Assembly (NCBI GenBank): GCA_021826565.1
Contig: JAKAZJ010000002.1
Coordinates: forward strand, 1-25,304
Length of the DNA: 25,304 nucleotides
Source of the DNA: Pseudomonadota bacterium
GTDB taxonomy: Bacteria > Pseudomonadota > Alphaproteobacteria > Acetobacterales > Acetobacteraceae
Direction: 5' to 3'
Below the pieces are notes generated by a model that saw only the letters and a program-made list of their open reading frames with translations, searched no databases and was not told the DNA's origin. The translations under genes and the position numbers were made by a program. Shown here piece by piece: positions 5,559-25,304 of this stretch; position 1 is the first letter of the stretch; each line of letters starts with the position of its first letter.

Positions 5559-7140
<1,582 letters not shown>

Positions 7141-7580: not shown

Positions 7581-7599
7581 GTTGTCCCGGAGCATGACG

Positions 7600-8271
7600 A
7601 TGCCCGCCACGCGAATTGCCCCCTCGCTCCTTGCGGCCGATTTCGCCCGACTTGGCGAGGAGGTCGCGCGCGTAACCGCCGCCGGCGCGGAGCTGATCCA
7701 TCTCGACGTGATGGATAACCACTACGTTCCTAACCTGACTTTCGGGCCGCAGGTCTGCGCCGCGCTGCGCCCGCTTACCGCCGCGCTGCTCGACGTGCAC
7801 TTGATGGCCCGGCCGGTCGATGCGCTGATCGGGATGTTCGCCGAGGCCGGGGCCGATATCATCAGCTTCCACCCCGAGGCCTCCGATCACGTCGATCGGT
7901 CGCTCGCGCTCAACCCGGCGACGCCCCTCGCCGTGCTCGATCATGTGTTGGACCGGCTCGACATGGTGTTGTTGATGTCGGTCAATCCCGGATTCGGCGG
8001 CCAGGCCTTCATCCCGACGACGCTCGACAGGGCGCACGCGGCACGGCGACGGATTACGGCGCATGTCGCCGCCGGCGGGCAGCCGATCCGGCTTGAGATC
8101 GACGGCGGGGTGAAGCCGGCCAACATCGCCGCGATCGCCGCGGCCGGAATCGATACGTTCGTGGCCGGCTCGGCGGTCTTCGGGGCACCCGATCCGGACG
8201 GCGGCTATCGCCGGGTGATGGCGGCACTGCGGAGCGAGATCGCTGCCGCCGTGCCATGGTGCGCGCCATGA
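7600..8271 (+). CDS. rpe: Ribulose-phosphate 3-epimerase
   Basis: A 223-residue TIM-barrel enzyme interconverting D-xylulose 5-phosphate and D-ribulose 5-phosphate in RuBP regeneration (also named cbbE). Visible signatures are [34 protein letters not shown] with the metal-binding His/Asp, [19 protein letters not shown] and the phosphate-binding EIDGGV. ATG 7600 is preferred over ATG 7594 because GGAG at 7589-7592 is then 7 nt away; the earlier ATG is almost adjacent to it. The stop codon overlaps the cbbX start (ATGA at 8268-8271), so the two are probably translationally coupled. Confidence 0.95.
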
Positions 8272-9158: not shown

Positions 9159-9180
9159 CGCGCAAATGACGGGGGAAACC

Positions 9181-10251
9181 ATGCATCGGCAGAAGACCTT
9201 CAGCAAATTTATCATCGAGGAGCAGCGCCGCGGCGCCCGGCCGGACCCGGATTTCACCGCGCTGCTCAACGATATCCAGACCGCCTGCAAATACATCGCG
9301 GTCGCGGTCTCCCGCGGCGGTGCGGCGACGAAGACCCCGACCGGCGCCAACGTCCACGGCGAGATCCAGAAGCCACTCGATCTGCTCACCAACGATGTTA
9401 TGGTGCAGACCTGCGAGTTCGGCGGCCAGGTGCGCGCGATGGTCTCCGAGGAGATGGCGGATCCCTACCTGATCCCGGGCGAGTCCCCGCGTGGACGTTA
9501 TCTGCTGGTGTTCGATCCGCTGGACGGATCCTCCAACATCGACGTCAATGGGACCGTCGGCACGATCTTTTCCGTCCTCCGCGCCCCCGAGGGCGCGGCG
9601 GCGCCGCGGGCGGAAGATTTCCTCCAGCCCGGAACGAGCCAGATCGCCGCCGGCTACGCGCTCTATGGCCCGGTCTCGATGCTGGTGGTCAGCCTCGGCT
9701 CTGGCGTGCACGGCTTCACGCTGGACCGCGAGATCGGCGCCTACAGCCTGACCCATCCCGATCTGCGCATTCCCGCCGGCACGCGGGAGTTCGCGATCAA
9801 CGCCTCCAACGAACGCTTCTGGGAACCGCCGGTCCGCCATTACGTGGAGGAATGCATCGCCGGTAAGTCCGGCCCGCGGGGCGAGGATTTCAACATGCGC
9901 TGGATCGCGGCCATGGTGGCGGAGGTGCATCGGATCCTGATCCGCGGCGGCGTTTTCATGTATCCGCGGGATACGCGCGATCCGTCGCGGCCGGGCCGGC
10001 TGCGCCTCCTCTACGAGGCTAATCCGATGGCGATGCTGATCGAGCAGGCCGGCGGCGCGGCCTCTACCGGCCGGAAACGGCTGCTCTCGCTGCAGCCGCG
10101 GGATATCCACGAGCGCGTGCCGGTGATCCTCGGCTCGCGCGAGGAAGTGGAACGGCTCGAGCGATACCATGCCGCCTTCGACCGCGGCGAGGACCTCGCC
10201 TTCGACACGCCGTTGTTCAATACCCGCTCTTTGTTCCTCCGCAACGCCTGA
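9181..10251 (+). CDS. cbbF: Class I fructose-1,6-bisphosphatase
   Basis: The 356-residue enzyme hydrolyses fructose 1,6-bisphosphate (and possibly sedoheptulose 1,7-bisphosphate) to the monophosphate plus phosphate. The class I signature FDPLDGSSNIDVNGTVGTIFS starts at residue 111 with the metal-binding DPLDGSS, preceded by VSEEM (metal Glu). Further conserved blocks are AINASNERFW, the substrate-binding GGVFMYPRD and LYEANPMAMLIEQAGG. GGGGGAAA before ATG 9181 is a good ribosome binding site; the gene lies 22 bp after cbbX and 14 bp before prk. Whether it is truly bifunctional FBPase/SBPase cannot be read from the sequence. Confidence 0.96.
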   Translation: MHRQKTFSKFIIEEQRRGARPDPDFTALLNDIQTACKYIAVAVSRGGAATKTPTGANVHGEIQKPLDLLTNDVMVQTCEFGGQVRAMVSEEMADPYLIPGESPRGRYLLVFDPLDGSSNIDVNGTVGTIFSVLRAPEGAAAPRAEDFLQPGTSQIAAGYALYGPVSMLVVSLGSGVHGFTLDREIGAYSLTHPDLRIPAGTREFAINASNERFWEPPVRHYVEECIAGKSGPRGEDFNMRWIAAMVAEVHRILIRGGVFMYPRDTRDPSRPGRLRLLYEANPMAMLIEQAGGAASTGRKRLLSLQPRDIHERVPVILGSREEVERLERYHAAFDRGEDLAFDTPLFNTRSLFLRNA

Positions 10252-10265
10252 CGGGGAGCGCCTGC

Positions 10266-11141
10266 ATGTCCAGGAAACATCCCATCGTTGCCATCACCGG
10301 CTCCTCCGGCGCCGGGACCACCACGGTGATGTCGGCGTTCCAGCAGATTTTCCGCCGCGAGGGCGTGAACGCGGCGATGCTGGAGGGCGACGCGTTCCAT
10401 CGCTACGACCGCGCCGAGATGCGCGCGTTGATGGCCGAACGCCAGAAGGCCGGGGATAACACGTTGAGCCATTTCGGTCCCGAGGCCAATCTGTTCGCGG
10501 AGCTCGAGGCGCTGTTCGCCGGGTACGGCGAGACCGGCACCGGTCGGGTCCGCAAGTACCTCCACAGCGACGAGGAAGCCGCGCCATACGGCTTGCCCAA
10601 TGGCACCTTCACGCCGTGGACCGAGCTGCCGGCGGAGACCGACCTGCTATTCTACGAGGGCCTGCACGGCGGCGTGAAGACGGACCAATGCGATGTCGCG
10701 CGCCATGTCGATCTGCTGGTCGGCGTTGTGCCGATCATCAATCTGGAATGGATCCAGAAGCTGCATCGCGACAAGAAGGCGCGTGGGCATTCGCACGAGG
10801 CGATCGTCGATACCATCCTGCGCCGGATGCCGGACTATGTGAACTACATCACCCCGCAGTTCTCGCGCACCCATGTCAATTTCCAGCGCGTGCCGACGGT
10901 CGATACCTCCAATCCGTTCGTCGCCCGCGATATCCCGGGTCCCGAAGAGAGCATGCTGGTGATCCGCTTCGCCAATCCGAAGGGGATCGATTTTCCCTAT
11001 CTGCTGTCGATGCTAAAGGACAGTTTCATGTCCCGGCCCAATACCATCGTCTGTCCGGGCGGCAAAATGGGCCTGGCGATGCAGCTGATTTTCACGCCGA
11101 TGATCTGGCAGCTCATGGACCGCAAGAAACGGAGTGCGTGA
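10266..11141 (+). CDS. cbbP: Phosphoribulokinase
   Basis: The 291-residue proteobacterial-type (class I, allosteric) phosphoribulokinase makes the RuBisCO substrate RuBP from ribulose 5-phosphate and ATP. The P-loop GSSGAGTTT is at residues 12-20, the substrate-site motif [10 protein letters not shown] follows at about 40-49, and the Walker-B-like [10 protein letters not shown] lies in the middle. [19 protein letters not shown] and [18 protein letters not shown] are typical of the bacterial form. GGGGAGC before ATG 10266 acts as ribosome binding site. Together with cbbLS this enzyme is the diagnostic proof of a working Calvin cycle. Confidence 0.97.
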
Positions 11142-11175
11142 TCCGTCTCGCGGCCGAACCGGGGAAAACCGAACG

Positions 11176-12240
11176 ATGGCACTGATCTCGATGCGCCAAT
11201 TGCTGGACCACGCCGCCGAGCACGGTTACGGCGTGCCGGCTTTCAACATCAACAACATGGAGCAGATCCACGCGATCATGCAGGCGGCCGACGCCTGCGC
11301 GAGCCCGGTGATCCTGCAAGGCTCTGCGGGGGCGCGGAAATATGCCGGCGAGGCGTTCCTGCGCCACCTCGTCGCCGCGGCGGTCGAAACCTGGCCCGAC
11401 ATCCCGGTGGTGCTGCACCAGGATCACGGCGCCAGCCCCGCGGTCTGCCTGCGCGCCATCCGCTCCGGCTTCACCAGCGTGATGATGGACGGCTCGCTCG
11501 GCGAGGACATGAAGACCCCGTCCAGCTACGACTATAACGTGGACGTCACCGCCCGGGTGGTGGAGCTGGCCCGCGCCGTCGGCGTCTCGACCGAGGGCGA
11601 ACTCGGCTGCCTCGGATCGCTCGAATCCGGCACCGCGGCCGAGGAGGACGGCTCCGGCGCGGCCGGCCGGCTCGATCACGAGCAGTTGCTGACTGATCCC
11701 GACCAGGCGGCGGATTTCGTCGCCCGCACCCGGGTCGATGCACTGGCGATCGCGATCGGAACCAGTCACGGCGCCTACAAGTTCTCCCGCCAGCCGACCG
11801 GCGAGATCCTCGCCATCGACCGCATCCGCGCGATCCACGCCCGGATTCCGACCACGCATCTGGTGATGCACGGCTCTTCCTCGGTGCCGCAGGAGCTGCT
11901 CGCCGTGGTGCGCGCATACGGCGGCGCCATCAAGGAAACCTATGGCGTTCCGCTGGAACAGATCCGCGAGGGCATCCGCCACGGCGTGCGCAAGGTGAAT
12001 ATCGACACCGACATCCGCCTGGCGATGACCGGGGCGATGCGGCGCGTCATGGGCACGCGACCGGAAGAGTTCGATCCGCGCAAGTTCCTCGCCGCCGCGG
12101 TGGAGGCGACCGCGACGCTGTGCCGCGAGCGATTCGAGGCGTTCGGGAGCGCCGGACAGGCCCCGCGCCTCCGTCCTGTCCCGCTCGCCGTGATGGCGGA
12201 ACGGTACGAAGCGGGTCGGCTCGATCCGCGCATCGCCTGA
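11176..12240 (+). CDS. cbbA: Class II fructose-bisphosphate aldolase
   Basis: A 354-residue zinc-dependent aldolase condensing glyceraldehyde 3-phosphate or erythrose 4-phosphate with dihydroxyacetone phosphate. The catalytic Asp and zinc His are in [10 protein letters not shown] (Asp 83, His 84). [12 protein letters not shown] supplies the class II signature Glu, and the phosphate loop is HGSSSVPQE followed by [10 protein letters not shown]. The length and the long C-terminal segment ([20 protein letters not shown]) fit the type B Cbb aldolases. Start ATG 11176 follows GGGGAAA (11161-11167). It is 34 bp downstream of prk and 34 bp upstream of tkt. Confidence 0.96.
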
Positions 12241-12274
12241 TCCCCGCAAGCTGCGACCCCACCAGGAGCCGAGT

Positions 12275-14275
12275 ATGACCGCAACCGCCGAACTTGCCGC
12301 CCGCCCCACTGGGCCGGTTCATGAGATGGCCAACGCCATCCGCGCGCTTGCGATCGACGCCGTGGAAGCGGCGAAATCGGGCCATCCTGGGATGCCGATG
12401 GGGATGGCCGAGCTCGCCACCGTCTTGTGGTCGCGCTACCTCACCTTCGACCCCGCCGATCCGCACTGGCCGGACCGCGACCGTTTCGTGCTGTCGAACG
12501 GCCATGGCTCAATGCTGCTCTATGCGGCGCTGCATCTCACCGGCCATGCCGGAATGGAGATGGGCGCGCTCGCCAGCTTCCGTCAATTGCATTCGCCCGC
12601 GGCGGGACATCCAGAATACGGGGCCCATCCGGCGATCGAAATGACCACCGGTCCGCTCGGCCAGGGTATCGCCACCGCGGTCGGCATGGCGCTGGCCGAG
12701 CGGATGCTCGCCGCGCGCTTCGGTTCCGCGCTGGTCGATCATCGCACCTACGTTTTCGCCGGCGACGGCTGCCTGATGGAGGGGATCAGCCAGGAGGCGA
12801 TCGCGCTGGCCGGGCATCTGCGGCTGTCGCGGCTTTGCGTGATCCACGACGATAACGCGATTTCGATCGACGGCCCGACCGCGCTCGCCAGTTCGGAGGA
12901 TATCCCACGACGGTTCGTCGCGGCCGGCTGGGCGGTGCGGCGGATCGACGGGCACGATCCGCGCGCCATTGCCCCCGCGCTAGCCTTCGGCCGGCGGGCA
13001 ACCCGCCCGACCCTCATCAGCGCGCGCACGATCATCGGCTTCGGCGCGCCGCACCGGGCCGGCACCGCCGCGGCACACGGCGCCCCGCTCGGCGCCGAGG
13101 AGGCGGCGGCGGCCAAGGCGGCGCTCGGCTGGGACTCCCTGCCTTTCACCGTTCCGGCCGTGATTCGGGCACGCTGGGAAGCGGCCGGGCGCCGCGGCGC
13201 GGCGCAACGACTCGCCTGGCAGGAACGCTTGGCCGCGCACCCGCAGCGCACAGCGTTCGAGCGCGCGATCGCGGGGGAGCTGCCCGCGCAGCTCGACACG
13301 GCGCTGGCCGCGCTGCGCGCGGAATTGGCGGCCGCCCGTCCGCGGCTCGCGACCCGTCAGGCAAGCCAGCGCGCGATCGCGGCCATCGCGCCTGCGCTGC
13401 CCGAACTGGTCGGCGGTTCGGCCGATCTGACGGGATCGAACCTCACCCACGCGCCGGGCATGGCGCCGGTGGTGGCCGGGGACTACGCCGGGCGCTACGT
13501 GCATTTCGGCGTTCGCGAGCACGGCATGGCGGCCTGCCTGTCTGGCCTCGCGCTGCATGGCGGCTTTATTCCCTACGGCGGCACGTTCCTCTGCTTCGTC
13601 GATTACATGCGTCCGGCATTGCGGCTTGCGGCGCTGATGCGCCAGCGCGTGATATACGTCCTGACCCATGATTCGATTGGCCTCGGCGAGGACGGGCCCA
13701 CGCATCAGCCGATCGAGCATCTGGCCAGTCTGCGGGCGATCCCGAACCTGTATCTGTTTCGTCCCGCCGATGCGATCGAGACCGCGGAGGCATGGGAGAT
13801 CGCGCTCCGCACCCGGGACCGCCCCTGTCTGATCGTCCTGTCCCGCCAGACCGTGCCGACGCTCCGGTCCGACACGACGGACAACCGCTCAGCGCGCGGC
13901 GGATACGTCCTGGCCGAGGCCGAGGGGCCGCGGCAGGCGACCTTGATCGCCACGGGATCGGAGGTCGCCATTGCGCTGGAGGCACGCACCCGCCTGGCCG
14001 CCGATGGAATTCGCGCCGCCGTCGTCTCCCTGCCGTGCTGGGAACGTTTCGCCACCGAGGACGAGACCTGGCACGCCGAGGTGCTGGGCACCGCGCCGCG
14101 CTTCGGGATCGAGGCCGCCTCGGGTTTCGGCTGGGAGCGCTGGCTGGGACCCGACGGGGTGTTCATCGGTCTGAGCGGATTCGGCGCCTCGGCCCCGGCG
14201 GAGACGTTGTACCGGCATTTCGGCCTGACCGCCGAGGCCGTGGCGGCTGCGGTGCGGCGGCGCACGCTATCCTAA
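12275..14275 (+). CDS. cbbT: Transketolase
   Basis: The 666-residue thiamine-diphosphate enzyme transfers two-carbon units among sugar phosphates in RuBP regeneration. Landmarks in order are AVEAAKSGHPGMPMGMAELA near the N-terminus, RDRFVLSNGHGSMLLYAALH, the ThDP/Mg motif GDGCLMEGISQEA ending in HDDNAISIDG (about 163-200), ADLTGSNLTHAPG, the catalytic-base region HFGVREHGMAACLSGLALHGG and THDSIGLGEDGPTHQPIEHLASLRAIPNL. Start ATG 12275 follows AGGAG (12264-12268). It is the last gene of the cbb operon; no intrinsic terminator with a U tract follows it. Confidence 0.96.
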   Translation: MTATAELAARPTGPVHEMANAIRALAIDAVEAAKSGHPGMPMGMAELATVLWSRYLTFDPADPHWPDRDRFVLSNGHGSMLLYAALHLTGHAGMEMGALASFRQLHSPAAGHPEYGAHPAIEMTTGPLGQGIATAVGMALAERMLAARFGSALVDHRTYVFAGDGCLMEGISQEAIALAGHLRLSRLCVIHDDNAISIDGPTALASSEDIPRRFVAAGWAVRRIDGHDPRAIAPALAFGRRATRPTLISARTIIGFGAPHRAGTAAAHGAPLGAEEAAAAKAALGWDSLPFTVPAVIRARWEAAGRRGAAQRLAWQERLAAHPQRTAFERAIAGELPAQLDTALAALRAELAAARPRLATRQASQRAIAAIAPALPELVGGSADLTGSNLTHAPGMAPVVAGDYAGRYVHFGVREHGMAACLSGLALHGGFIPYGGTFLCFVDYMRPALRLAALMRQRVIYVLTHDSIGLGEDGPTHQPIEHLASLRAIPNLYLFRPADAIETAEAWEIALRTRDRPCLIVLSRQTVPTLRSDTTDNRSARGGYVLAEAEGPRQATLIATGSEVAIALEARTRLAADGIRAAVVSLPCWERFATEDETWHAEVLGTAPRFGIEAASGFGWERWLGPDGVFIGLSGFGASAPAETLYRHFGLTAEAVAAAVRRRTLS

Positions 14276-14326
14276 CGGGGGAGAGGCTGCCGGGTGTCCG
14301 TTCGATTTCGCGGGCGCACAACGCAT

Positions 14327-14384
14327 GGCGAGCGCAGGGCGAGGGTGTGAACCGACTGGAACTTTTTTGCTGCAGGCGCTCGCC
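14327..14384. other. 9-bp inverted repeat between convergent genes
   Basis: GGCGAGCGC (14327-14335) and GCGCTCGCC (14376-14384) form a perfect 9-bp inverted repeat separated by 40 nt that include a TTTTTT run (14363-14368). The element occupies the 119-bp gap between the ends of cbbT and the convergent LysR gene. It could be a bidirectional transcription barrier, although the T run lies inside the loop rather than after the stem. Confidence 0.4.
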
Positions 14385-14394
14385 CGGTGGCCGC

Positions 14395-15357
14395 TCAGCC
14401 CTCGCGCGGTCTGATTGCGCCGGGTTTTCGCGCAGGCTTTTCTTCTTGTTGGAACCAGGCCATCGGATTGTCGCTCGCGCTCAGCGGCTTCAGGATCGCA
14501 AGGAGCGCTCGCGCCATCGGCAGCAACGGGTCGCCGTCGACGTAGACCAGCCCCACGTGCCGCGTCACCTCGGGATTGACGAGCCGAACGACACGGGCGC
14601 CGGGAAAGCCTCCCGCGACAAGTTCGAAATGGCTCGGCACGATCGTGGCGAAACCGCTGAACATCGTGTGGAAGGCGAGATTTACGATGGAATCCGACTC
14701 GATCTGAGGCGTCGGCGCTTCGCCCACCGAGGCAAACGCGGCATCGATCACCTGCCGCTCATGCATGTGTGGCGGCAACAGGCACAGCTTCAGCTTCGCC
14801 GCCTCGCCCCAGGTCATCTCCGATGCCCCGGACGAGCCCGCCTCCTGGGGAATCAGAAGGCTCAGATGCTCCTTGTAGAGCGGCATGCTCAACAATGGCG
14901 CCGGCTGCGGCTGATCGATATAGGTGATTCCGGCATCGATATCGAAGCTGATCAGCTTGATCCGGAGTTCCTCGTTACCCAGGAAGCGAACGTCGATCCT
15001 GGATTTCGAATGAACGTCGAGGAATCTCTTGTTGAGATATGGCAATACCGGTGTGCTCGTCGGCATGACCCCGAGACGGAGCCGGCCGGTCAGTTCCTTC
15101 TTCAGGATCGAAAGATCCTGGCGCATGCTGTTCCGGTCGGAGAGAATCCGCTTCGACCATTCCAGGATACGCTGCCCCTCCGGGGTCAGGCCCTGGAACC
15201 TCTGATGGCGCAGCACGATGGTCGACCCGAGCTCGATCTCGAGCTGCCGGATCGCGTTCGACAGCGTCGGTTGCGACACATTGCAATGAACCGCGGCTCG
15301 GCTGAAGTTCTGGTGCTCGGCGAGCGCCAGAAGATATTCGAGCTGTCGGAAGAACAA
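14395..15357 (-). CDS. LysR-type transcriptional regulator
   Basis: A 320-residue regulator when started at TTG 15357, which is preceded by GGGGAG seven bases upstream and places the HTH at the N-terminus (FFRQLEYLLALAEHQNFSRA, then CNVSQPTLSNAIRQLE, residues about 2-45). A GTG-like start further upstream would prepend 41 residues unlike any LysR N-terminus. The effector domain (RLRLGVMPTSTPVLPYLNKR, FDIDAGITY, IESDSIVNLAFHTMFSGFATIVPS) is distinct from CbbR. It sits downstream of the DUF1634-TSUP gene on the same strand, 142 bp away, and converges on cbbT. It may regulate the formate/TSUP cluster; regulators of similar sequence are known beside formate dehydrogenase operons, but this is only an analogy. 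Confidence 0.88.
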   Translation of the reverse strand: MFFRQLEYLLALAEHQNFSRAAVHCNVSQPTLSNAIRQLEIELGSTIVLRHQRFQGLTPEGQRILEWSKRILSDRNSMRQDLSILKKELTGRLRLGVMPTSTPVLPYLNKRFLDVHSKSRIDVRFLGNEELRIKLISFDIDAGITYIDQPQPAPLLSMPLYKEHLSLLIPQEAGSSGASEMTWGEAAKLKLCLLPPHMHERQVIDAAFASVGEAPTPQIESDSIVNLAFHTMFSGFATIVPSHFELVAGGFPGARVVRLVNPEVTRHVGLVYVDGDPLLPMARALLAILKPLSASDNPMAWFQQEEKPARKPGAIRPREG

Positions 15358-15499
15358 GGCGCTTCTCCCCTGGCACGTTGGCCCATCCTGCCGAGACCCT
15401 ACAACCTCGCCAATGATCTTGCTATCACTGGACGAGCGGTGGACGTCGAGTGGAACCCTGGTCCGGGGAGGCTGGTGCACGCCCCAGGAGAGGCCCTGA

Positions 15500-16774
15500 T
15501 CAGAGCCAGCCCATCCCCCGCGCCAGCATGTTCAGCGCCACCAGCACGATCACCGGCACGAAGATCTTCTTCAACCAGACATTGGACATCCTGGTGAGTA
15601 TCTTGGCTCCGACCGTCGCGCCCAGCAGCACGCCGAGCGCCACCGGTGCCGCGATGGCCGGATCGATATCGCCACGCTGGAAGAAGATGCCCGCCGAGGC
15701 CGCCGCGGTCACCCCGATCATGAAATTGCTGGTGGTGGTGGAAACCTTCATCGGCAGCCGCATCGCCGTGTCCATCGCCAGCACCTTGAACGTGCCGCTG
15801 CCGATGCCGAGCAGGCCGGAGATCAGCCCGGCCACGTACATCATGCTGAAGCCCGACCTGATATGCGCCACATGATAGGACACGTCGCGCTGTGTGCGTC
15901 GATCCGGGTAGGTACCTGGCAGGCGCAGCTTCGTTGCCCATTTGTGGTTCGCCACGCCGGCCGGCAGTTCCTCGCCCAGCCGCATGATCAGCGGTGCCGC
16001 TGAAATCAGCAGCACCACTCCAAAAACAATGAAAAGCACCGACGCATTCAGCAGGGTGGACAGCAGGGCGCCGCAAATGGCGCCCGTGGTGGTTGCGACC
16101 TCCAGGAACATGCCGACCCGGAGGTTGGTCATACGGTCCCTCACATAGGCGGCCGCCGCACCCGAGGAGGTTGCGATCACCGACACGATGGAGGCGCCAA
16201 TCGCCGCGGTGAAGGTCACGTGGAAGACCAGGGTCAGGATCGGCACGATGAACACACCACCGCCCAGGCCGACCAGCGCACCTACGAAGCCAGCGAAGAC
16301 CGAGCTGAGGAGGACCGAAATGAAGAACGTCATGGTGTCGTCCTGCACCACAGCCGGCTCCGGCCGGCCGAGCCAGGCGCCGATACCGAAAATGCTGAAC
16401 AGCAGAATGGCCAGCACGAGGGCGGTGATCATCACATAGGTGCGGTCTTCCTCGATCGCGAAGGCAGCGATCGAGACCGCGACCCGGATCACCGGCGTGG
16501 CGAGCAGAATGAGCAGCCCGAGCACGACGATCGCCAATGGGCCGCCGCGCAGCAATCCGGTCGCGACCGCCGGCAGCGTGTCCGGAAAGGTCGGGTGGGG
16601 CAGCAGGCCTGCGAAGCGGAGCGCGTAGAAATAGCTGATCCCCCCCAGGATCACCGCCACGCTGAGCAGAACCCCCCCGCGCAACACGCCGCTGATAATG
16701 AGTTCGGTCTTTCGGATGACGCTGTCGTCCGGACGGAAAGCGACGGCTCCCCGGTCAACGGTCTGATCCGCCAT
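15500..16774 (-). CDS. DUF1634 - TSUP (TauE/SafE) permease fusion
   Basis: One uninterrupted frame of 424 residues joins two membrane domains. Residues about 20-132 (RKTELIISGVLRGGVLLSVA, then GLLRGGPLAIVVLGLLILLATPVIRV, three TM helices) match DUF1634, usually a separate small gene beside TSUP genes. Residues about 148-424 are a TauE/SafE-type permease with its two repeat motifs GFVGALVGLGGGVFIVPIL and GLISGLLGIGSGTFKVLAMD. TSUP proteins move sulfite, sulfonates or other small organic anions; the substrate here is unknown. Start ATG 16774 is chosen because the preceding 50 residues of a longer frame (from GTG 16924, overlapping the folB-like stop) look non-conserved. An internal ATG at 16333 with AGGA seven bases upstream would give the TSUP part alone. 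Confidence 0.85.
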   Translation of the reverse strand: MADQTVDRGAVAFRPDDSVIRKTELIISGVLRGGVLLSVAVILGGISYFYALRFAGLLPHPTFPDTLPAVATGLLRGGPLAIVVLGLLILLATPVIRVAVSIAAFAIEEDRTYVMITALVLAILLFSIFGIGAWLGRPEPAVVQDDTMTFFISVLLSSVFAGFVGALVGLGGGVFIVPILTLVFHVTFTAAIGASIVSVIATSSGAAAAYVRDRMTNLRVGMFLEVATTTGAICGALLSTLLNASVLFIVFGVVLLISAAPLIMRLGEELPAGVANHKWATKLRLPGTYPDRRTQRDVSYHVAHIRSGFSMMYVAGLISGLLGIGSGTFKVLAMDTAMRLPMKVSTTTSNFMIGVTAAASAGIFFQRGDIDPAIAAPVALGVLLGATVGAKILTRMSNVWLKKIFVPVIVLVALNMLARGMGWL

Positions 16775-16917
16775 AGCGCTTTGGTCCCATTGGTCCTGTC
16801 TGAAGTCGGCGCCTTCTCCCAACCCGCTCATCGCCTGGTCCAGGCTGATCGCGGAGACAAGGTCGGTGGCCGGTCCACCTGGACGAATAGAGCTTTCCAC
16901 TTCAATGCCTCGATGAT

Positions 16918-17340
16918 TCAGCACCCCACGCTCGTCCGTTCAATCTCGACCCCGACGCTGGCAACATCGTCATAGATGTCGAGTTTCTCGACCCGCGCGC
17001 GCAGACTGTGGACACGCACGTCCACGAGGCAGACTCCGGCGATGCGCTCGGCCAGGGTCTCCACGAGATTCACGTGTCCTTCCTGGATAATCCCGCGAAC
17101 TTCCTGGATGATCCGGTCATAGCAAACCACCCGGTGCAGATCGTCGTCGATCGGCTCCGCCTCCTCGTAGACAAAGAGGGTGAGGTTGATCCGGACCCGC
17201 TGAGGTGCGTTGCGCTCATGGGGATAGGCGCCGATACGTGCGGGAAGAACAAAGTCGCGTATCAGGACCTGGCGAAGACCCCGGGGCGCGATCAGTGGCG
17301 ATGACGGTCGCACACGTGGGTAAAGCTCGGTGTTGCTCAT
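16918..17340 (-). CDS. Dihydroneopterin aldolase family protein (FolB-like)
   Basis: The 140-residue protein has the T-fold of dihydroneopterin aldolase/epimerase. Key positions of FolB are recognisable: IGAYPHERNAPQRV (Glu 42), VVCYDRII (Tyr 74), the pterin-anchoring NLVETLAERIA, and VEKLDIYDDVASVGVEIER, in which Lys 119 aligns with the catalytic Lys of FolB. It has about 20 extra N-terminal residues compared with the usual length of about 120. The start at ATG 17340 gives GGA at a 7-nt distance; ATG 17346 and TTG 17352 are alternatives. It lies 135 bp after fhs and just before the TSUP gene, inside a C1-folate cluster, so it may act on H4-pterin cofactors rather than serve housekeeping folate synthesis. 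The exact substrate is inference. Confidence 0.8.
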   Translation of the reverse strand: MSNTELYPRVRPSSPLIAPRGLRQVLIRDFVLPARIGAYPHERNAPQRVRINLTLFVYEEAEPIDDDLHRVVCYDRIIQEVRGIIQEGHVNLVETLAERIAGVCLVDVRVHSLRARVEKLDIYDDVASVGVEIERTSVGC

Positions 17341-17475
17341 GGTCATGTCCAAAACCGTCGCGCCTCACATCCTTGGGTCATGTATCGCCACGGGTCCGCC
17401 TGACCGCTGGAAGAACGCCGAGACGGGTGGGGGCACATCCCCGCTCCATTCCTGGTCTGACGATCGCATCTCGGA

Positions 17476-19182
17476 TCAGGATAGCCCCGTGATTTGTCCG
17501 TCGGGACTGACCGCGACATCCACCGCCGAGGGCACGCGCGGCAGACCGGGCATCGTCATGATATCCCCGCAGATGGCAACGACAAATCCGGCGCCCGCCG
17601 ACAGCCGCACCTCCCGGACAGGCAAGGTAAAGCCGCTGGGGGCGCCGCGGAGATCGGGATCGGCCGAGAAGCTGTACTGGGTCTTGGCCATGCACACCGG
17701 CAGATGCCCGAATCCCATGTCCTCGAATTCCTTGAGGCGCGCGCGCACTGCCTTCGGGAGCTCAATCCCGCTTGCGCGGTAGATCTTGGTGGCGATGGTC
17801 TCGATCTTCGCCGCCAGCGGAAGTTCATCGGGATAGAGCAGGCGGAAATCCGCCGCCCCCGATTCGACCACACCAACCACCGCGCGGGCGAGATCCTCGG
17901 CCCCGGCGCTGCCTTTTCCCCAATGCTCGCAGACGACCGCCTGAATGCCGAGGGCCTTGCAACCGTCGATGATCGCGGCGAGTTCCGCCGCGCTGTCGCC
18001 GCTGAACCGATTGATGCCGACAACGGCGGGCACCCCGAATCGGGCCAGGTTTTCCAGGTGGCGCCGCAGGTTGGCGAGCCCCTTCGTCACCGCGCCCGGA
18101 TTGGCCGCGCCGAGCTCGGATTTGCTGACGCCGCCATGCATCTTGAGCGCGCGCACGGTGGCCACCACCACGGCCGCATCCGGGCGCAGACCAGTCTTGC
18201 GGCACTTGATGTCGAAGAATTTCTCGGCCCCGAGATCGGCGCCGAAGCCGGCCTCGGTCACGACATAATCGGCCAGCTTGAGGGCCAGGGTGGTTGCCAT
18301 CGCCGAGTTGCAGCCATGGGCGATGTTCGCGAACGGCCCGCCATGCACGAATGCCGGGTTGTTCTCGATGGTCTGGACCAAGTTGGGTTTAAGCGCATCC
18401 CTGAGCAGGGCAACCATCGCCCCCGCGGCCTTGATATCCCGCGCCAGCACCGGCTTGCGATCCCGCGTGACGCCCACGATGATATCGTTCAGGCGGCGTT
18501 CCAGATCCTCGAACGAGGTGGCGAGACAGAAGATCGCCATCACCTCGCTTGCCACCGTGATGTCGAATCCGTCCTCGCGCGGGAATCCATTAGCCGTACC
18601 GCCGAGCGAGGAGACAATCTGACGCAGGGCGCGGTCGTTCATGTCGAGGCAGCGGCGCCAGGTGATCCGACGCTGATCGATCCCGAGCGTGTTGCCCCAG
18701 TAGATGTGGTTGTCGATCATCGCGGCGAGCAGATTGTTCGCCGCGGAGATGGCATGAAAATCGCCGGTAAAATGCAGGTTGATGTCGTCCATCGGCACCA
18801 CCTGCGACCGGCCTCCGCCGGCGGCACCGCCCTTCATGCCGAAGCAGGGGCCGAGGCTTGGCTCACGGAGACAGATCGCGGCCTTCTTGCCGATCCGGTT
18901 GAGCGCGTCGCCGAGTCCGACGGTCGTCGTGGTCTTGCCCTCACCGGCCGGGGTCGGAGAGATGGCCGTCACCAGGATCAGCTTGCCGTTGGCGCGCTCC
19001 GTCATGGCGCGGCGGACGAAATCCAGCCCGATCTTCGCCTTGTAGTGGCCATAGGGTTCGACCACGCTCGCCGGAATGCCGAGCCGCCCGGTCGCGATCT
19101 CGCCGATGGGCTTGAGGTGCGCCGCGCTGGCAATCTCCCAGTCGCTCTGCATCGCTACCGGCGGAGAATGACCCTGGCTCAT
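17476..19182 (-). CDS. fhs: Formate--tetrahydrofolate ligase
   Basis: The 568-residue enzyme couples formate and ATP to tetrahydrofolate, giving 10-formyl-H4F, and can run in reverse to make ATP from 10-formyl-H4F. The P-loop TPAGEGKTT is at residues 77-85; [69 protein letters not shown] and the C-terminal [13 protein letters not shown] blocks are all present, so it is full length. ATG 19182 overlaps the folD stop (ATGA), implying tight translational coupling of the two C1 enzymes. Bacteria that build purines by formyl-H4F from FolD alone do not need Fhs, so it points to formate assimilation or C1 oxidation. Confidence 0.97.
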
Positions 19183-20084
19183 CGTACGGCTCCCTCGGTG
19201 ATGGATGGCTGTCGCGCAGCCGCTGCGTGTCGCGCTCCGTTCCCGCGTTCCGCGGCGACGACGGTGTTCTCAAGCAGCATCGTGACCGTCATCGGGCCAA
19301 CGCCGCCGGGCACGGGCGTGATGTAGGAGGCCTTTCTCCGCACACCCTCGAAATCAACATCGCCGACGAAATGCCCGTCGCTGCTGCGGTTGATGCCCAC
19401 ATCGATGACGACCGCGCCTGGGCGAACCATCTCCGGGGTCACGAGATTCGGGCGTCCGGCGGCGACTACCAGGATATCCGCAAGTGCGGTGTACTCGCGC
19501 AGGTCCCGGGTCTTGATGTGACAGACGGTGACCGTTGCCTCGCGCTCCAGGAACATCAGGGCCATCGGCTTGCCGACGATGTTGCTTGCTCCGACGACGG
19601 TCGCGTTGCGGCCGGTGACCGGGATATTCTCGTAGTCGAGCAGCTTCATGACCCCGTAGGGCGTGCAGGGCGGGAAGACGGTATCGCCGATGACAAGGCC
19701 GCCGACGTTATACAGATTGAACCCGTCCACGTCCTTTTCCGCGGCAATCGCCTCCAGGATCGGGCGGACCTGAATATGCCGCGGAAGCGGGAGCTGCACG
19801 AGAATACCGTGGATCGCGCGATCGGCGTTCAGTGCATGGATACGATCGAGGATTTCGGATTGCGTCACCGTCTCGGGGGAGCCGACCACCTGTGTACGAA
19901 TCCCGACATCGGAGCAGGCACGTAGCTTGTTACGGACGTAAAGCTTGGACGCCGGAGTGTCGCCGACCAGGATCACGGCCAGCCCCGGCGTGATCCCTCG
20001 CCCCGCGAGGGCCCCGACACGGGTGCGGATTGCCTCGCGAAGCTCGCGCGCAACCCCCAGTCCATCGATGATTTTTGCGTTCAA
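19179..20084 (-). CDS. folD: Bifunctional methylene-H4F dehydrogenase / methenyl-H4F cyclohydrolase
   Basis: The 301-residue FolD interconverts 5,10-methylene-H4F, 5,10-methenyl-H4F and 10-formyl-H4F with NADP. Catalytic Tyr 49 and Lys 53 lie in [14 protein letters not shown], the nucleotide-binding [22 protein letters not shown] and the closing [19 protein letters not shown] are canonical. I start at TTG 20084, which gives [10 protein letters not shown], the usual family N-terminus, with AAGGA nine bases upstream; the ATG at 20114 has no ribosome binding site and adds ten residues. It is first gene of a folD-fhs-folB-like-TSUP transcription unit preceded by a 589-bp spacer that must hold its promoter. 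Confidence 0.95.
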
Positions 20085-20673
20085 GGCCGTGTATCCTTGG
20101 CGGTGTGCGCGCATAGCGGCCGCGCGAGTCCTCTCGCCGGAATCGTCCGGCTGGAAATCGCAGGTGCCTCGCGCGGATCAATGGAGTCCATGCGGGTCGA
20201 CGACGGAGCAGGTCCGGCATACGCGATGCTTCCGGTGATCGGGAGCCATGAGCGCCAGGGCGTTCCATGATCGGGGACACTGCCCAGAAGCGCGGTGGCC
20301 AGACTGAATGCGGCCCCGTCTCGTTGGGAAAACCTGTCCCGTCGTTTCCATTCCCTCTGGCCTCATCCTTGTTGCCGGACCGCCACGTCGCGCTCGAACA
20401 CGCGCCCTGGGACCGGATGTCTGAGTATAATCAGGAAGCCCCGGCTCGTGCTCATACTTCTTTTCTATCAGCCGATAATACATCACCATGATGGCGCGTC
20501 CTTGCATGGCAGCCCGCGTCTGCAAGCGGCGCGGGTGCGCTACGTCGACGCGGAACAAGGGAACACGGAACCAGCATCCTCGGCCGCGGCCGCGGCCGCT
20601 TCCCGGCCCGGAGCGACCTCCGGCGCGCCGTGGCCCCGCCGGATTCCGTGTCGGGAACAGGTCCCGCCGGCGA
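20085..20673. promoter_or_regulatory. Long leader upstream of folD-fhs (no gene recognised)
   Basis: This spacer separates folC from folD. It includes a near-palindrome CTGAGTATAATCAG (20421-20434), where 6 of 7 base pairs match around a TATA core. An AT-rich region follows (about 20425-20480: ATACTTCTTTTCTATCAG), and GGCCGC is repeated three times in tandem (20582-20599). A folD promoter and a LysR-type or other operator are plausible here. No THF riboswitch could be recognised by eye. The open frames crossing it (for example minus strand from 20699) look like chance. Confidence 0.35.
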
Positions 20674-21948
20674 TCAGGATCCGCGCTGGACCCAGCCATC
20701 CTGCTTCAGCACTTCGCCGGCAAGATAGAGACTCCCGCAGATCAGCACCCGTCCGGGCGTCGCCTCCGCAGGCAGCTGCCGTAGGGCGTCCGCCACGCGC
20801 GGCCCCACAAGCGCGACGCCCCGGGACGCGGCGACAATGGCTTCCACCGGCAGCGCCAGGTGCTGCTCCGGCTCGGCCACCGCCCAGACGCCGGCGACCA
20901 ACGGCAGCAGCGGGCGGAGGAACTCGTCCGCATCCTTTGCCTGTTTCATTCCCACCACGAGATGCACCGGCCGGTCGGACCAGGAGGCGAGCTGCGCCGC
21001 CAACGCCGCTCCGGCACCCGGGTTGTGCCCGCCATCGAGCCACAACTCCCAGCCCGGCGGCAGCAGCGCGGCGAGCCTTCCGGTCAGGAGTTGCAGTCGT
21101 GCCGGCCATTCCGCGCGGGCGAGGCCGGCGGCAAGGGCCGCATCCGGTACACCGATTCCGGCGGCACGCATCGCCGTCAGCGCGATGCCGGCATTGTCCC
21201 ATTGATGCGTACCCGGCAGCGAGAGCGGAGGAAGGCGGAGCGTGCCCGCGGCATCACGGTAGAATCCCTCGCCGGTGTCCCAGTCCCGGCCGCGCAGCAA
21301 CACTGGCGCTCGCTGCGCGGCAGCCTGTGCGCAGAGGACCGCGCGCACCGCCTCCGGCTGCGCGCCGATGGCTGCCGGCACGCCCGGTTTGATGATTCCG
21401 GCCTTCTCCGCCGCGATCGCCTCCAGCGTGTCACCGAGCAGGTCCCGGTGATCGAGCGAAATGGAGGTGATCGCGCTCGCAGCGGGGCGGGAGATGACGT
21501 TGGTGGCATCGCCGCGCCCCCCGAGACCCACCTCCAGCACGCAGAGTTCGGCCGGGGTGCGGGCGAACAACATCAGGGCGACGGCGGTCGTGACCTCGAA
21601 CACGGTGATCGGCGCGCCGGCATTGACCTGTTCGACTTCCTCCAGGCCGGCCGCCAGCACCGGATCGGAGACCAGCGCACCCGCCAGGCGGATGCGCTCG
21701 TTGAAGCGGATCAGATGCGGCGAGGTATACACGTGGACGCGCAGCCCGGCGGCTTCGCCCATGCCCCGGAGAAAAGCGCAGGTGCTGCCCTTGCCGTTGG
21801 TGCCGGCGACATGGATCACCGGCGGCAGGCGACGTTCGGGATGATCGAGCTTCGCCAGCAGGCCGATCAGCCGGTCCAGGCTCAGATCGATCAGCCGCGG
21901 ATGAAGGCCGTGCAGGCGGGCAAGCAACCTTTCAATCCGGCGGCTCAT
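20674..21948 (-). CDS. folC: Dihydrofolate synthase / folylpolyglutamate synthase
   Basis: The 424-residue Mur-ligase-type enzyme adds glutamate to dihydropteroate and to folates, keeping H4F cofactors in the cell. The ATP loop GTNGKGST is at 49-56 and TSPHLIRFNERIRL follows. The carbamate/glutamate region VLEVGLGGRGDATNVI is in the middle, with [20 protein letters not shown] next; the C-terminal domain contains DGGHNPGAGAALA. The length matches the family. It lies 39 bp after the MFS gene on the same strand, and its link with folD-fhs is broken by the long spacer. A housekeeping role is likely, but its place in this cluster supports dedicated C1-folate supply. Confidence 0.95.
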   Translation of the reverse strand: MSRRIERLLARLHGLHPRLIDLSLDRLIGLLAKLDHPERRLPPVIHVAGTNGKGSTCAFLRGMGEAAGLRVHVYTSPHLIRFNERIRLAGALVSDPVLAAGLEEVEQVNAGAPITVFEVTTAVALMLFARTPAELCVLEVGLGGRGDATNVISRPAASAITSISLDHRDLLGDTLEAIAAEKAGIIKPGVPAAIGAQPEAVRAVLCAQAAAQRAPVLLRGRDWDTGEGFYRDAAGTLRLPPLSLPGTHQWDNAGIALTAMRAAGIGVPDAALAAGLARAEWPARLQLLTGRLAALLPPGWELWLDGGHNPGAGAALAAQLASWSDRPVHLVVGMKQAKDADEFLRPLLPLVAGVWAVAEPEQHLALPVEAIVAASRGVALVGPRVADALRQLPAEATPGRVLICGSLYLAGEVLKQDGWVQRGS

Positions 21949-21987
21949 GTGAGCGGTCCCTCCGTTCCTGCCGATGCGTCAGGCCGC

Positions 21988-23367
21988 CTACGCCTCTTCC
22001 TGCATCGAGATTTCCTCCAGGACCCGGCCGCGGGTCTCGATACCGAGGAAAAGGACGAGAGCGGCGGAGATCACGAAGCTCGCCGCGCCGAACGAGAACA
22101 CCGCACCCCGACCGATGGTGCTGATGAGGAAGCCGACGGCGATCGGCCCGAGAATGGCACCCACACGGCCGAAGGCCGAGGCAACGCCCGATCCCGTGGA
22201 GCGGGCCCGCGTCGGGTAGAGTTCCGGCGTGTACGCATACAGACAACACCACATACCGAACATGAAGAACTGCATGAAGAACCCGGCCGCGAACAGGAAA
22301 CCCAGGCTGATCGAGTGGCCATAGACGTAGGCAAGCAGCGCGCTCATCACGAGAAATAGCGCAGTCGTGAGTTTTCGTCCCAGGCGCTCCAGGAGCAAGC
22401 CGGCCGCGAAGAACCCCGGAATGCCGCCCACCGAGATCATGCTCACGAAGCCGATCGACTTGATGATAGAGAAGCCATGCTGGTTCAGAATCACGGCAAG
22501 CCAGGAGGTGAGCCCAAAATATCCAAGCAGCGCGAAGAACCAGAGGCCCGCGAGCATGACCGTGCTGCGTAGATAGGCGCGCGTGAAAAGGATGCGAAAG
22601 GGATTCGTCAGCGACTGCGATGTCTCCGGGACATACTGTTTGGGAGCAGGGAGCGGCCGGCCCCATTTCGCCGCAACTTCTCGTTCCATATTCGTAAGGA
22701 CCGCGTCGGCTTCCGCGAATCGCTTCTGATCGACCAGCCAGCGGGGGGATTCGAAGATGATCTGCCGTGCCCAGAAGATCACGAGCGAGAGGATTCCGAC
22801 CGCCACGAACACGCCCCGCCAGCCGAGAATCGGCAGGACCGTGTAGGCGAGCAGGCCGGATATGACGAACCCGACGGCCCAGAACCCTTCCATGAACGAT
22901 ATGTAGAATCCGCGCTTATCGGCCGGGATGATCTCCGACAGGATTGACTGCGCCACCGGCGCCTCCCCGCCCACGCCGATACCGATGATCAGGCGGAACA
23001 GCATCAGAGTCACCAGACCGGTGGCGCCGGCGGCCAGGAAGCTCCCGATGCCCCAGATCAGCATGGTAAGCTGGAAGGCGAGGCGGCGGCCGAAGCGGTC
23101 CGATATGTATCCGGCGATCAGATTACCGATCAGCTGACCAAGGAAGGTCATGGAGGCGAGCAGGCCGATCTGTACTTTCGTCAGATGGAAATACGCCGCG
23201 AGCGGCCCGATCAGAAACACCAGCAGGGCGACGTTCACCTGGTCGGCGAGCCATGCCGTCGCCACGGCAGCGAAGACGCGGCGCTGGTAGGAGGTCATCG
23301 GCAGACGCTCCAGCCGCCCGGGAACATTGACCGATTCCGCATCAAGCAACGCGGAGGACACGCTCAT
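21988..23367 (-). CDS. MFS transporter, metabolite:H+ symporter type
   Basis: A 459-residue, 12-helix major facilitator protein. The family motif A GYISDRFGRR is at residues 86-95, followed by RLIIGIGVGGEAPVAQSILSEIIPADKRG (motif typical of the sugar/aromatic acid/metabolite:H+ symporters) and, after the central loop, ERLGRKLTTALFL and YTPELYPTRARSTGSGVASAFGRVG. Candidates include organic acids, aromatic acids or nicotinate; the substrate cannot be read from sequence. Start ATG 23367 follows GGGAG at a 7-nt distance; an in-frame ATG 6 bp upstream and a long extension to 23478 are less likely. It is followed by folC after 39 bp. Confidence 0.88.
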   Translation of the reverse strand: MSVSSALLDAESVNVPGRLERLPMTSYQRRVFAAVATAWLADQVNVALLVFLIGPLAAYFHLTKVQIGLLASMTFLGQLIGNLIAGYISDRFGRRLAFQLTMLIWGIGSFLAAGATGLVTLMLFRLIIGIGVGGEAPVAQSILSEIIPADKRGFYISFMEGFWAVGFVISGLLAYTVLPILGWRGVFVAVGILSLVIFWARQIIFESPRWLVDQKRFAEADAVLTNMEREVAAKWGRPLPAPKQYVPETSQSLTNPFRILFTRAYLRSTVMLAGLWFFALLGYFGLTSWLAVILNQHGFSIIKSIGFVSMISVGGIPGFFAAGLLLERLGRKLTTALFLVMSALLAYVYGHSISLGFLFAAGFFMQFFMFGMWCCLYAYTPELYPTRARSTGSGVASAFGRVGAILGPIAVGFLISTIGRGAVFSFGAASFVISAALVLFLGIETRGRVLEEISMQEEA

Positions 23368-23531: not shown

Positions 23532-24296
23532 TCACCCCCAGCTCAGTACTCCACCCAGTGATTGCCAGCTACGCGCCAGGACCAGAACACCGACGGCCAA
23601 CAGCACCACCGCGACCAACCTGGTCACCCACAGGAGTGGTGCGGCATGCGCAATGCGGGCACCCAGCGCGGTGCCGATCGCCACTCCGGCGCCGAGCACA
23701 AGGCCCAGGCGTGGATCGAACTGGCTCGCGAGAAGATTCCCAACTGTCGCCATCAGCGCGATCGGGATCTGGATCGCCTGACCGAGGCCGACAGCGGCGC
23801 GCACCGGCATGCGCAGCCACAGCAGCAGCGGCACGAGCAGAAGCGGCCCGCCGGTGCCGATCATGGCGGAGACGGTCCCGACACCGGCGCCGACTAGGAC
23901 GAGGCTCCAGGGGCGAAGCATATGACGGCCCTCCGCCGCCCTCTTCTGGCGTCGCAACGCACGAATCCCGGTGGCGATCACCACAATCGCGATCAGGGGC
24001 AGGAGCAGCTTGCCGTCGAGACGCGAGGCAAGCACGGCCCCAGCGAGTGCCCCAGGTATGGCTCCACTTCCAAGCCAGACAGTGGAACCCCAGTCGATCG
24101 ATCCACTTCGCCAGTACAGCGCGACCCCGACAATACCGCTGAAGACGAAACTGAACATCGCCGCCGCGAGAGCCACGTGCACCGAGATTCCGGCAAACGT
24201 CAGAACAGGAACGAGCACGACCCCGCCAATGCCGACGCAGCCGATCAACGTCCCGGAAACCAGCGCCAGCAAGGCGATGCCGATCACGCTTGGCAT
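23532..24296 (-). CDS. TSUP family permease (TauE/SafE-like)
   Basis: A 254-residue membrane protein with about eight predicted helices. The first repeat motif is LVSGTLIGCVGIGGVVLVPVLTFAGI (residues about 10-37) and the second is GAGVGTVSAMIGTGGPLLLVPLLL. TSUP proteins export sulfite or transport sulfonates and other anions. The start at ATG 24296 is supported by GGAA about eight bases upstream and by the family N-terminus; a longer frame from 24389 adds a hydrophilic leader without homology. It is a different, shorter relative of the DUF1634-fused TSUP at 15500-16774. Next to a DmsC-type anchor it suggests sulfite handling. Confidence 0.88.
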   Translation of the reverse strand: MPSVIGIALLALVSGTLIGCVGIGGVVLVPVLTFAGISVHVALAAAMFSFVFSGIVGVALYWRSGSIDWGSTVWLGSGAIPGALAGAVLASRLDGKLLLPLIAIVVIATGIRALRRQKRAAEGRHMLRPWSLVLVGAGVGTVSAMIGTGGPLLLVPLLLWLRMPVRAAVGLGQAIQIPIALMATVGNLLASQFDPRLGLVLGAGVAIGTALGARIAHAAPLLWVTRLVAVVLLAVGVLVLARSWQSLGGVLSWG

Positions 24297-24553: not shown

Positions 24554-25304
24554 TCACCCCGCGCGCCCATAGTACAGCGTGACGGTATGCGTTGCCTCGG
24601 CGAAGAACAGCCAGCGTTCGAGATAGATCCCCCCGACCGCGCTGACCGCCGCCGCCGGCAGCGCCACCAGTGCCAGCGCGCCGCCGCCGATTGCGCCCGC
24701 CAGCAGCAGCGTCGCCGGCGCGACGAACCCGAGTCCGAGCGCGATCTTCCGCAGCCGTGCCACGTGCCGCCGGCCGATCACGAAGCCCATTTCGCGCAGC
24801 AGGTAGTTCTCCTCGGTATGCGGCACCTCCAGGCTGCGCACCTTGCCGAGGAAGCCAAGCCCGGTCGCGCTCTCGATCGTCGCGGCCGGCGGCGCGCGAT
24901 CGATCGAGCGCCAGTAGCCGAGCTTGCCGGCCACCGCCGCCACCCCCGCCACGACCGCGATTCCGGCGGCGATCCGCGCCGCGCCCGACGAGAAGAACAC
25001 CGCGAAGCCGGCGAGGCAGGCGGCGCCGCTGAACAGCGACAGCATCAGGTAGTTCGGCAGCACGGCGTGGTGGTACCACTGCCGGATCGGCTTCAGCGAG
25101 GCGTAGATCATCGCCTGCGACGCCACGGTGGCCAGTCCGCAGGCGGCCGCGAGCACCCCGAGCGCGACAGTGACGCCCGCCCCCGCCCCCGCCAGCGCCC
25201 AGGCCAACGGAAAGCCGAGCGTGGGGAGGAAGGTCACGATCGCCATCACCCCCTCCCGCGACAGCCACGACGTGCGCCATTGCGAGATCGCCCGCCAGGC
25301 GCGC
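24554..25304 (-). CDS. DmsC/SoeC-family membrane anchor, partial at window edge
   Basis: The frame is open to the window edge, so the visible 249 residues are the C-terminal part. It contains about seven hydrophobic helices. The first visible residues, RAWRAISQWRTSWLSREG, match the membrane anchor of DMSO-reductase-type molybdoenzymes, and the C-terminus IYLERWLFFAEATHTVTLYYG is characteristic. Such anchors (DmsC in respiration, SoeC in sulfite oxidation) pass electrons between quinone and the iron-sulfur subunit. The companion catalytic and iron-sulfur genes would lie just beyond the window. Proximity to a TSUP permease and a cbb operon favours sulfite dehydrogenase (SoeC); respiratory DMSO reductase or another member of the family cannot be excluded. 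A start at 25246/25249 is internal, not native. Confidence 0.75.
   Translation of the reverse strand, partial: RAWRAISQWRTSWLSREGVMAIVTFLPTLGFPLAWALAGAGAGVTVALGVLAAACGLATVASQAMIYASLKPIRQWYHHAVLPNYLMLSLFSGAACLAGFAVFFSSGAARIAAGIAVVAGVAAVAGKLGYWRSIDRAPPAATIESATGLGFLGKVRSLEVPHTEENYLLREMGFVIGRRHVARLRKIALGLGFVAPATLLLAGAIGGGALALVALPAAAVSAVGGIYLERWLFFAEATHTVTLYYGRAG

Follow-up and report, generated by a model that had tools for sequence, protein, structure and literature searches.

We examined a 25,304-nucleotide stretch of DNA (the window), positions 1 to 25,304 of contig JAKAZJ010000002.1 from a Pseudomonadota bacterium of the family Acetobacteraceae (GenBank assembly GCA_021826565.1), in which genes for one-carbon (C1) metabolism lie beside a cbb (Calvin cycle) operon. 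The C1 genes belong to a minus-strand unit that reads, in the order of transcription, DmsC-like fragment, plain TSUP permease, MFS permease, folC, folD, fhs, folB, DUF1634-TSUP fusion permease and LysR regulator. An initial annotation had suggested that the last five of these genes form a dedicated unit, possibly for the uptake and assimilation of formate or another C1 anion. We read the window genes, at a probability of about 0.58, as belonging to an island for the breakdown of a C1 sulfonate of the methanesulfonate type, of which they would form the one-carbon, sulfite-handling and regulatory section beside the cbb operon. Within this reading we are more confident of the C1 module controlled by an FdsR-like regulator, which is quite likely to be correct. 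The sulfonate link for the window organism itself is less sure, and we place it slightly above even odds.

The open reading frames (ORFs) and protein family models agree with the five identities proposed initially. FolD (methylene-tetrahydrofolate dehydrogenase/cyclohydrolase; 19179-20084, or to 20114; PRK14189, 425.9 bits, cut-off 421), Fhs (formate-tetrahydrofolate ligase; 17476-19182; PRK13505, 897 bits, cut-off 652), FolB (dihydroneopterin aldolase, DHNA; 16918-17340; TIGR00525, 76.3 bits, cut-off 72.15) and FolC (20674-21948; TIGR01499, 341 bits, cut-off 163) all score above the NCBIfam cut-offs, and both TSUP permeases and the LysR regulator (14395-15357; HTH_1 and LysR_substrate) score above those of Pfam. 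The folD gene likely starts at TTG 20084 and the LysR gene likely at TTG 15357. A gap of 589 bp separates folC from folD, and folD and fhs overlap by four bases (ATGA), as had been noted. The DUF1634-TSUP fusion (15500-16900; Pfam DUF1634 and TauE) likely starts at GTG 16900, which is preceded by GAGG and lies 17 nt past the folB stop; co-transcription with folB is likely.

The evidence for an island comes from relatives, first among them a metagenome-assembled genome (MAG), G004, where five genes of the window have their counterparts on a single 24.7-kb contig: LysR (74% identity), plain TSUP (70%), folD (73-74%), fhs (82-83%) and folB (50%). The last three stand in the same order as in the window and are followed by fdsG, fdsB and fdsA. 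The plain TSUP gene is divergent from the LysR orthologue. Between this pair and folD lie genes for a panB-like protein, 5-formyl-tetrahydrofolate cyclo-ligase (5-FCL), a four-component Rieske oxygenase (alpha, beta, Rieske ferredoxin and an MmoC-like reductase, with a cNMP-binding protein between the latter two) and an MFS permease. The alpha subunit has the motif C-X-H-X26-C-X2-H, which is also found in Methylobacterium nodulans, in Paraburkholderia graminis and in one of the alpha subunits of a further genome, G615. A 26-residue Rieske spacer is peculiar to MsmA of methanesulfonate monooxygenase, according to an excerpt of the published description (PMC5068391). The G004 beta subunit, ferredoxin and reductase are candidate counterparts of MsmB, MsmC and MsmD, to which they were likened by description. 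The alpha-subunit search matched 7 genomes in 289. In five other matching genomes, seven stretches hold twelve alpha matches (26-42%), and the ten with a readable motif are all X17; these seven stretches have no LysR, TSUP, fhs, folD, folB or fds matches.

Two of the X26 loci may connect the oxygenase to sulfite chemistry. On pMNOD01 of M. nodulans, the oxygenase is 61, 50, 49 and 42% identical to the four parts in G004 and is accompanied by an MFS permease (40% to that of G004), TauE (43% to the plain TSUP of the window), formate dehydrogenase (FDH, 36-39%), a LysR and the sulfite dehydrogenase SorAB (SorA 678, cut-off 600; SorB 118.5, cut-off 93; NCBIfam); the annotation of this locus lists neither folD nor fhs nor folB. 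The G615 locus combines X26 alpha, beta and ferredoxin with a DmsABC-like A-B-C molybdoenzyme, a LysR gene divergent from TauE, panB (76% to that of G004) and fhs (66%). The DmsC-like fragment of the window (24554-25304), a membrane anchor of a molybdoenzyme complex whose N-terminus is cut by the contig end, is 40% identical to the G615 DmsC anchor over 248 residues; its truncated frame scores 21.6 bits, slightly below the Pfam DmsC cut-off of 22.3. SoeABC-type sulfite dehydrogenases are built from a molybdopterin subunit (A), an FeS subunit (B) and a DmsC-like subunit (C), and the window anchor may be SoeC-like. No library model names the G615 A, B and C subunits as a sulfite dehydrogenase. 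The company of an X26 oxygenase in G004 upholds the earlier suggestion of a link to a small anion, sulfonate or sulfite.

The same loci bear on a different kind of island, one for aromatic compounds or arylsulfonates, in which the MFS permease would import an aromatic sulfonate, a dioxygenase would free sulfite and the C1 genes would handle methyl groups or the formate set free by ring cleavage. We regard it as improbable. The model nearest to the window MFS permease (21988-23298; TIGR00895, 243 bits, under the cut-off of 418.55) is that of aromatic-acid/H+ symporters, as it is for the MFS permeases of G004 and M. nodulans, all under the cut-off, and MFS genes also occur in P. graminis at a locus with 4-hydroxy-2-oxovalerate aldolase. 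Set against this are the X26 spacer, described for MsmA in the excerpted source (PMC5068391), and panB, 5-FCL, fhs and fds, which are C1 genes. The P. graminis locus itself (L302, pPHS1_P), where an X26 oxygenase, MFS and TSUP lie by meta-cleavage genes, may be an arylsulfonate locus. In G615, a Rieske alpha paralogue (L316:13561-14670) with a kept catalytic domain and an unreadable Rieske motif was observed next to LysR/TauE, downstream of the X26 alpha.

The regulator may point to formate. After the G004 orthologue, the next best LysR is 44% identical to that of the window among the matches listed for 190 genomes of the class. The homology group has FDH neighbours, yet the window LysR itself is not beside an FDH gene. 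Genes for fds subunits or FdhD were found nearby in 12 of 18 near genome loci (18 of the 20 other listed places, fetched at length, one a 3.7-kb contig). Likewise, 11 of 14 near plasmid matches (picked at 155-225 bits) lie close to genes for FDH, FdhD or formate hydrogenlyase, and one of the other three is in a cbb/C1 cluster. FDH-related genes were nearby in none of seven distant matches (picked at 72-122 bits), one of which shows formaldehyde dehydrogenases. The available part of one report describes C. necator FdsR as formate-inducible, with a Km of 130 uM (PMC7057948). By these neighbourhoods, the window LysR is probably FdsR-like and formate-responsive. Together with the placement of the G004 genes alongside fdsGBA, this agrees with the initial proposal of a dedicated C1 or formate unit.

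A unit for formate assimilation or detoxification alone, with no sulfonate, would share this regulator. Formic acid would diffuse into an acidophile, LysR would sense formate, Fhs and FolD would convert it to methylene-tetrahydrofolate, and the TSUP would export formate or another weak-acid anion. The FdsR-like LysR neighbours, a window that has fhs-folD-folB but lacks an oxygenase and the relatives from MAG series resembling acid mine drainage (habitat taken from sample names) are all consistent with it. We nevertheless consider it unlikely, since three other genomes pair the conserved TSUP and/or DmsC-like gene with an X26 oxygenase, one of them also with SorAB, and we know of no TSUP that carries formate.

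A candidate operator for LysR lies upstream of folD on the minus strand (20450-20478; TTATCGGCTGATAGAAAAGAAGTATGAGC). The folD upstream regions of the window and G004 have 19 of 21 bases in common here, a match equalled by 1 in 300 dinucleotide shuffles. The commonest short dyad in the LysR-fdsG gaps of other loci is ATAG-N7-CTAT (9 of 15 gaps), and the window element is a near fit to it. A matrix of this box was built on 10 sites, chosen as the best among 14 LysR-fds gaps and none of them from the window or G004. With it, the folD upstream element takes the top rank in the G004 contig and shares the top rank in the window. Local Markov shuffles of the folD upstream region scored as high in 32 of 2000 cases for the window and 7 of 2000 for G004. 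Beside near LysR genes that were unused for the matrix, scores above 10 were obtained in 2 of 11 cases, one of them a perfect dyad at 27.6. Another dyad, TATC-N4-GATA, was absent from all 16 LysR-fds gaps examined (one empty) and was replaced by ATAG-N7-CTAT. A riboswitch upstream of folD was also rejected: the best match in 20060-20700 was a serC leader at 12.7 bits (E 4.5), and no Rfam family reached its gathering score in the window.

The gene set extends beyond one strain, as conservation in G004 and on closer MAG contigs attests. A FolB match (P0002, 85%) and a FolD match (P0242, 88%) are both on 8,897-bp contigs, presumably one and the same, and so presumably are the 6,540-bp contigs that hold a FolB match (P0004, 79%) and a DUF1634-TSUP match (P0123, 84%). 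A FolD 99% identical to that of the window belongs to a protein cluster whose longest contig measures 26,548 bp. Window Fhs is at most 79% identical to other matches listed besides G004 (397 family genomes), and window FolD at most 54% (395 genomes of the order). FolD is nearer to betaproteobacterial copies (Azoarcus plasmid, 67%; Paraburkholderia, 64-65%) and looks like an accessory copy of that type; G004 has two FolD matches. One FolD homologue (P0244, 399 aa, on a 1,836-bp contig) carries a short-chain dehydrogenase domain (PF00106) and may be an assembly chimera.

FolB keeps Glu, Tyr, Glu and Lys at the positions expected of DHNA when aligned with solved DHNAs, in line with the catalytic positions reported initially. 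The FolB of the G004 module keeps the same four residues and scores 59.9 with TIGR00525, under the cut-off of 72.15. A FolB tree of 115 rows and 139 columns, whose bootstrap had not settled, has a 42-row clade (100/99), 41 rows of which are loci from the family of G004; it contains the usual FolB of that family and the second FolB of G004. The window FolB and the fhs-linked FolB of G004 both fall outside this clade, and their grouping with each other is not demonstrable. Instead of the C1-conversion step once proposed for it, window folB looks like an ordinary DHNA in an accessory copy, i.e. one for cofactor supply.

The folC gene is probably the native housekeeping copy. Its homologue was found in 19 of 20 genomes at one locus each (two in two pieces), with full-length matches of 65-80%, and this single-locus occurrence leaves an accessory role like that of folC2 on pCMU01 unsupported. 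One genome, G001, has both a FolC 80% identical to that of the window and a DUF1634-TSUP at 88% (L001). We infer an acquired folD-fhs-folB-LysR-TSUP set beside native genes. If folC, folD, fhs and folB were unrelated housekeeping genes of folate metabolism that had come by chance to lie next to a permease and a regulator, this would suit the native look of folC and the general nature of DUF1634-TSUP. Such a chance grouping is very improbable given the accessory look of FolD and FolB and the five counterparts on one G004 contig. At two loci, L133 (G285) and L135 (G256), folC (66-68% to that of the window) was seen within ~5 kb of fhs, so the nearness of these genes may predate the window arrangement.

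A dedicated role in the unit is not supported for the permease singled out initially, DUF1634-TSUP. Searches with window proteins (tblastn, E<=1e-8) at 51 other loci of this fusion found folD and folB at none and fhs at one, L030 (distant, 44%; with a distant LysR, 22%); several contigs are short and these results hold as far as the contigs reach. A unit-specific role was rejected on the strength of these loci, 50 of which have none of the three genes folD, fhs and folB, and the fusion, a general family, was probably recruited to the unit. It is widespread (L001-L051) in MAGs resembling acid mine drainage, from several phyla by record title, and lies near the ribosomal protein L13 gene in ~10 loci by eye, with no metabolic partner seen.

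The conserved permease is instead the plain TSUP (23532-24296; Pfam TauE, 138 bits), whose orthologue is divergent from LysR in G004. It lies outside the interval first assigned to the unit, 14395-20084. The genes within that interval stand; its extent was too short, since the plain TSUP and the DmsC-like fragment beyond it are better conserved partners than DUF1634-TSUP. Only G004 among 28 genomes has a plain TSUP match at E<=1e-30, a count to be read with the plasmid search in mind, where no match at 1e-20 was reported despite the 43% identity of M. nodulans TauE; we regard that result as falsely negative, and low-complexity filtering may be the cause. From its neighbourhoods with SorAB and the DmsABC-like genes, the plain TSUP is a probable carrier of sulfite or a sulfonate anion.

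Under the C1-sulfonate reading, an MsmA-type Rieske oxygenase encoded off the contig would cleave a small sulfonate, yielding sulfite together with a one-carbon unit. Sulfite would leave via the plain TSUP or be oxidized by the molybdoenzyme with the DmsC-like anchor. The one-carbon unit would be bound to tetrahydrofolate (H4F), and FolD and Fhs would turn methylene-, methenyl- and formyl-H4F and formate into one another. They may run towards oxidation, as the placement with fdsGBA in G004 would have it, or towards assimilation. The accessory FolB would raise the supply of pterin precursor and let the H4F pool bear the added flux. Formate would be oxidized to CO2 by a formate dehydrogenase, present in G004 and with no counterpart on the window contig, and the adjacent cbb operon would refix the CO2. 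LysR would sense formate and act at the box upstream of folD. A route via tetrahydromethanopterin (H4MPT) was rejected, as a search of 5 genomes, among them G004, gave no Fae. More tentatively, acidophilic bacteria of the Acetobacteraceae type may hold a self-contained C1-sulfonate island as one Calvin cycle-coupled regulon, comprising an MsmA-type oxygenase, sulfite export and oxidation, an H4F path with its own folB and thus cofactor supply, FDH and a formate-sensing LysR, and might grow autotrophically on methanesulfonate via formate and CO2.

Several results weigh against the C1-sulfonate reading. The window has no oxygenase and no formate dehydrogenase among its genes; none of its ORFs is an MsmA-type X26 alpha, no partners of MsmB, MsmC or MsmD type were seen, and the contig ends at the DmsC-like gene. 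To our knowledge, no X26 oxygenase other than MsmA has a known substrate. In P. graminis, the X26 alpha is found with TSUP and MFS beside meta-cleavage genes, and 25 kb of annotation there contain no LysR and none of the C1 genes seen at the other loci; X26 need not mean methanesulfonate. G615 has no folD, folB, fds or reductase match within 28 kb. The window MFS is only 25% identical to that of G004. FDH genes are absent from the surroundings of the two LysR matches that rank next to G004 (44%), although one of these lies by molybdenum-cofactor genes. The operator is not significant in a scan of the whole window, where 93 of 200 whole-sequence shuffles were as good (11 of 200 for the G004 contig), and matrix scores above 10 also occur beside 2 of 7 distant LysR controls. 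Finally, fhs neighbourhoods were surveyed by tblastn over ~1.5 kb per side in the best 30 of 249 family genomes and the best 30 of 168 class genomes. Both folD and folB adjoin fhs at 1 of 59 distinct fhs loci, that of G004, and two members of its genus (G145, G070) have fhs at 78-79% without adjoining folD or folB. The trio is rare.

If true, the reading adds acidophilic Acetobacteraceae-like bacteria to the known range of methanesulfonate-type C1-sulfur degradation. It would also supply a testable substrate for a TSUP subgroup and a testable inducer for a LysR group, and would show a gene of folate synthesis grouped with C1 enzymes dependent on that cofactor. As an annotation rule, C1-sulfonate loci without the MsmEFGH importer may be recognizable by an X26 Rieske alpha together with TauE, an FdsR-like LysR and either fhs or fds.

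Every part of this arrangement is already known. No description of the gene set was seen among the papers listed by full-text searches on folB with fhs/folD, TauE with H4F and formate, and fds regulators, a body that covered few subscription papers. Among the closest counterparts are the msm systems. Candidatus Filomicrobium marinum has the msmABCD monooxygenase, the msmEFGH importer and the sulfite dehydrogenase SoxDC downstream of msmH (PMC4424283). G004 resembles these systems in its X26 alpha, beta, ferredoxin and reductase, along with C1 genes and formate dehydrogenase, and SoxDC downstream of msmH parallels SorAB beside the X26 oxygenase of M. nodulans. In contrast, the window has no msm gene, and the genes read in G004, M. 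nodulans and G615 are accompanied by MFS and/or TSUP permeases, with no ABC importer seen next to them. An FdsR-like LysR and, in G004, folD-fhs-folB are built in, and a cbb operon adjoins the window unit.

The fdsR-fdsGBA operons of C. necator (PMC7057948) and M. trichosporium (PMC3615186) share with our loci a LysR of this type by FDH, as far as excerpts of these papers go. The published FdsR proteins were likened to the window LysR by description, not sequence. G004 has LysR and fdsGBA on one contig, and the ATAG-N7-CTAT box is related. They differ in that the window LysR gene follows folB and TSUP and does not precede fdsG, and that its predicted target is folD. Plasmid pCMU01 of Methylobacterium extorquens CM4, which serves H4F-dependent chloromethane use, likewise clusters enzymes with cofactor-synthesis genes, having folD and an extra folC2 with the C1 pathway. 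According to the excerpted description (PMC3621897), it differs in its substrate, in PurU instead of Fhs and in an extra folate gene that is folC2, not folB. A FolB homologue lies inside the C1 clusters of Azospirillum oryzae (CP054618) and Phyllobacterium (CP088274); these are H4MPT/methanofuran clusters, in which the cofactor is H4MPT, not H4F, and the FolB tree does not resolve the position of these homologues. Azoarcus sp. KH32C pAZKH has a cbb operon, a LysR 38% identical to that of the window and folE beside C1 genes, with H4MPT genes (fae, fhc) in place of folD-fhs and folE in place of folB. This locus (L212, 251671-264558), which includes two LysR genes, is a possible H4MPT counterpart of the window arrangement.

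The cbb operon of the window (4533-14275) consists of cbbR (minus strand, divergent), cbbL, cbbS, rpe, cbbX, fbp, prk, fba and tkt, with prk, fba and tkt called from NCBIfam/Pfam and rpe by eye. It ends at 14275, convergent with the minus-strand unit, and its cbbL, S, X, F and P products are 56-76% identical to their Azoarcus pAZKH counterparts. A plasmid origin was rejected, as no plasmid record covers 14300-22000 to 80%. Close protein relatives of the window genes come from MAGs, some labelled Acetobacteraceae. The source habitat is probably acid mine water, as the MAG series of the relatives resemble acid mine drainage, a habitat read from sample names. An ORF at 2508-3929 was seen by eye to consist of repeated Sel1-like units (KQGNAxAQxxLGxLYxxGxGVPKD).

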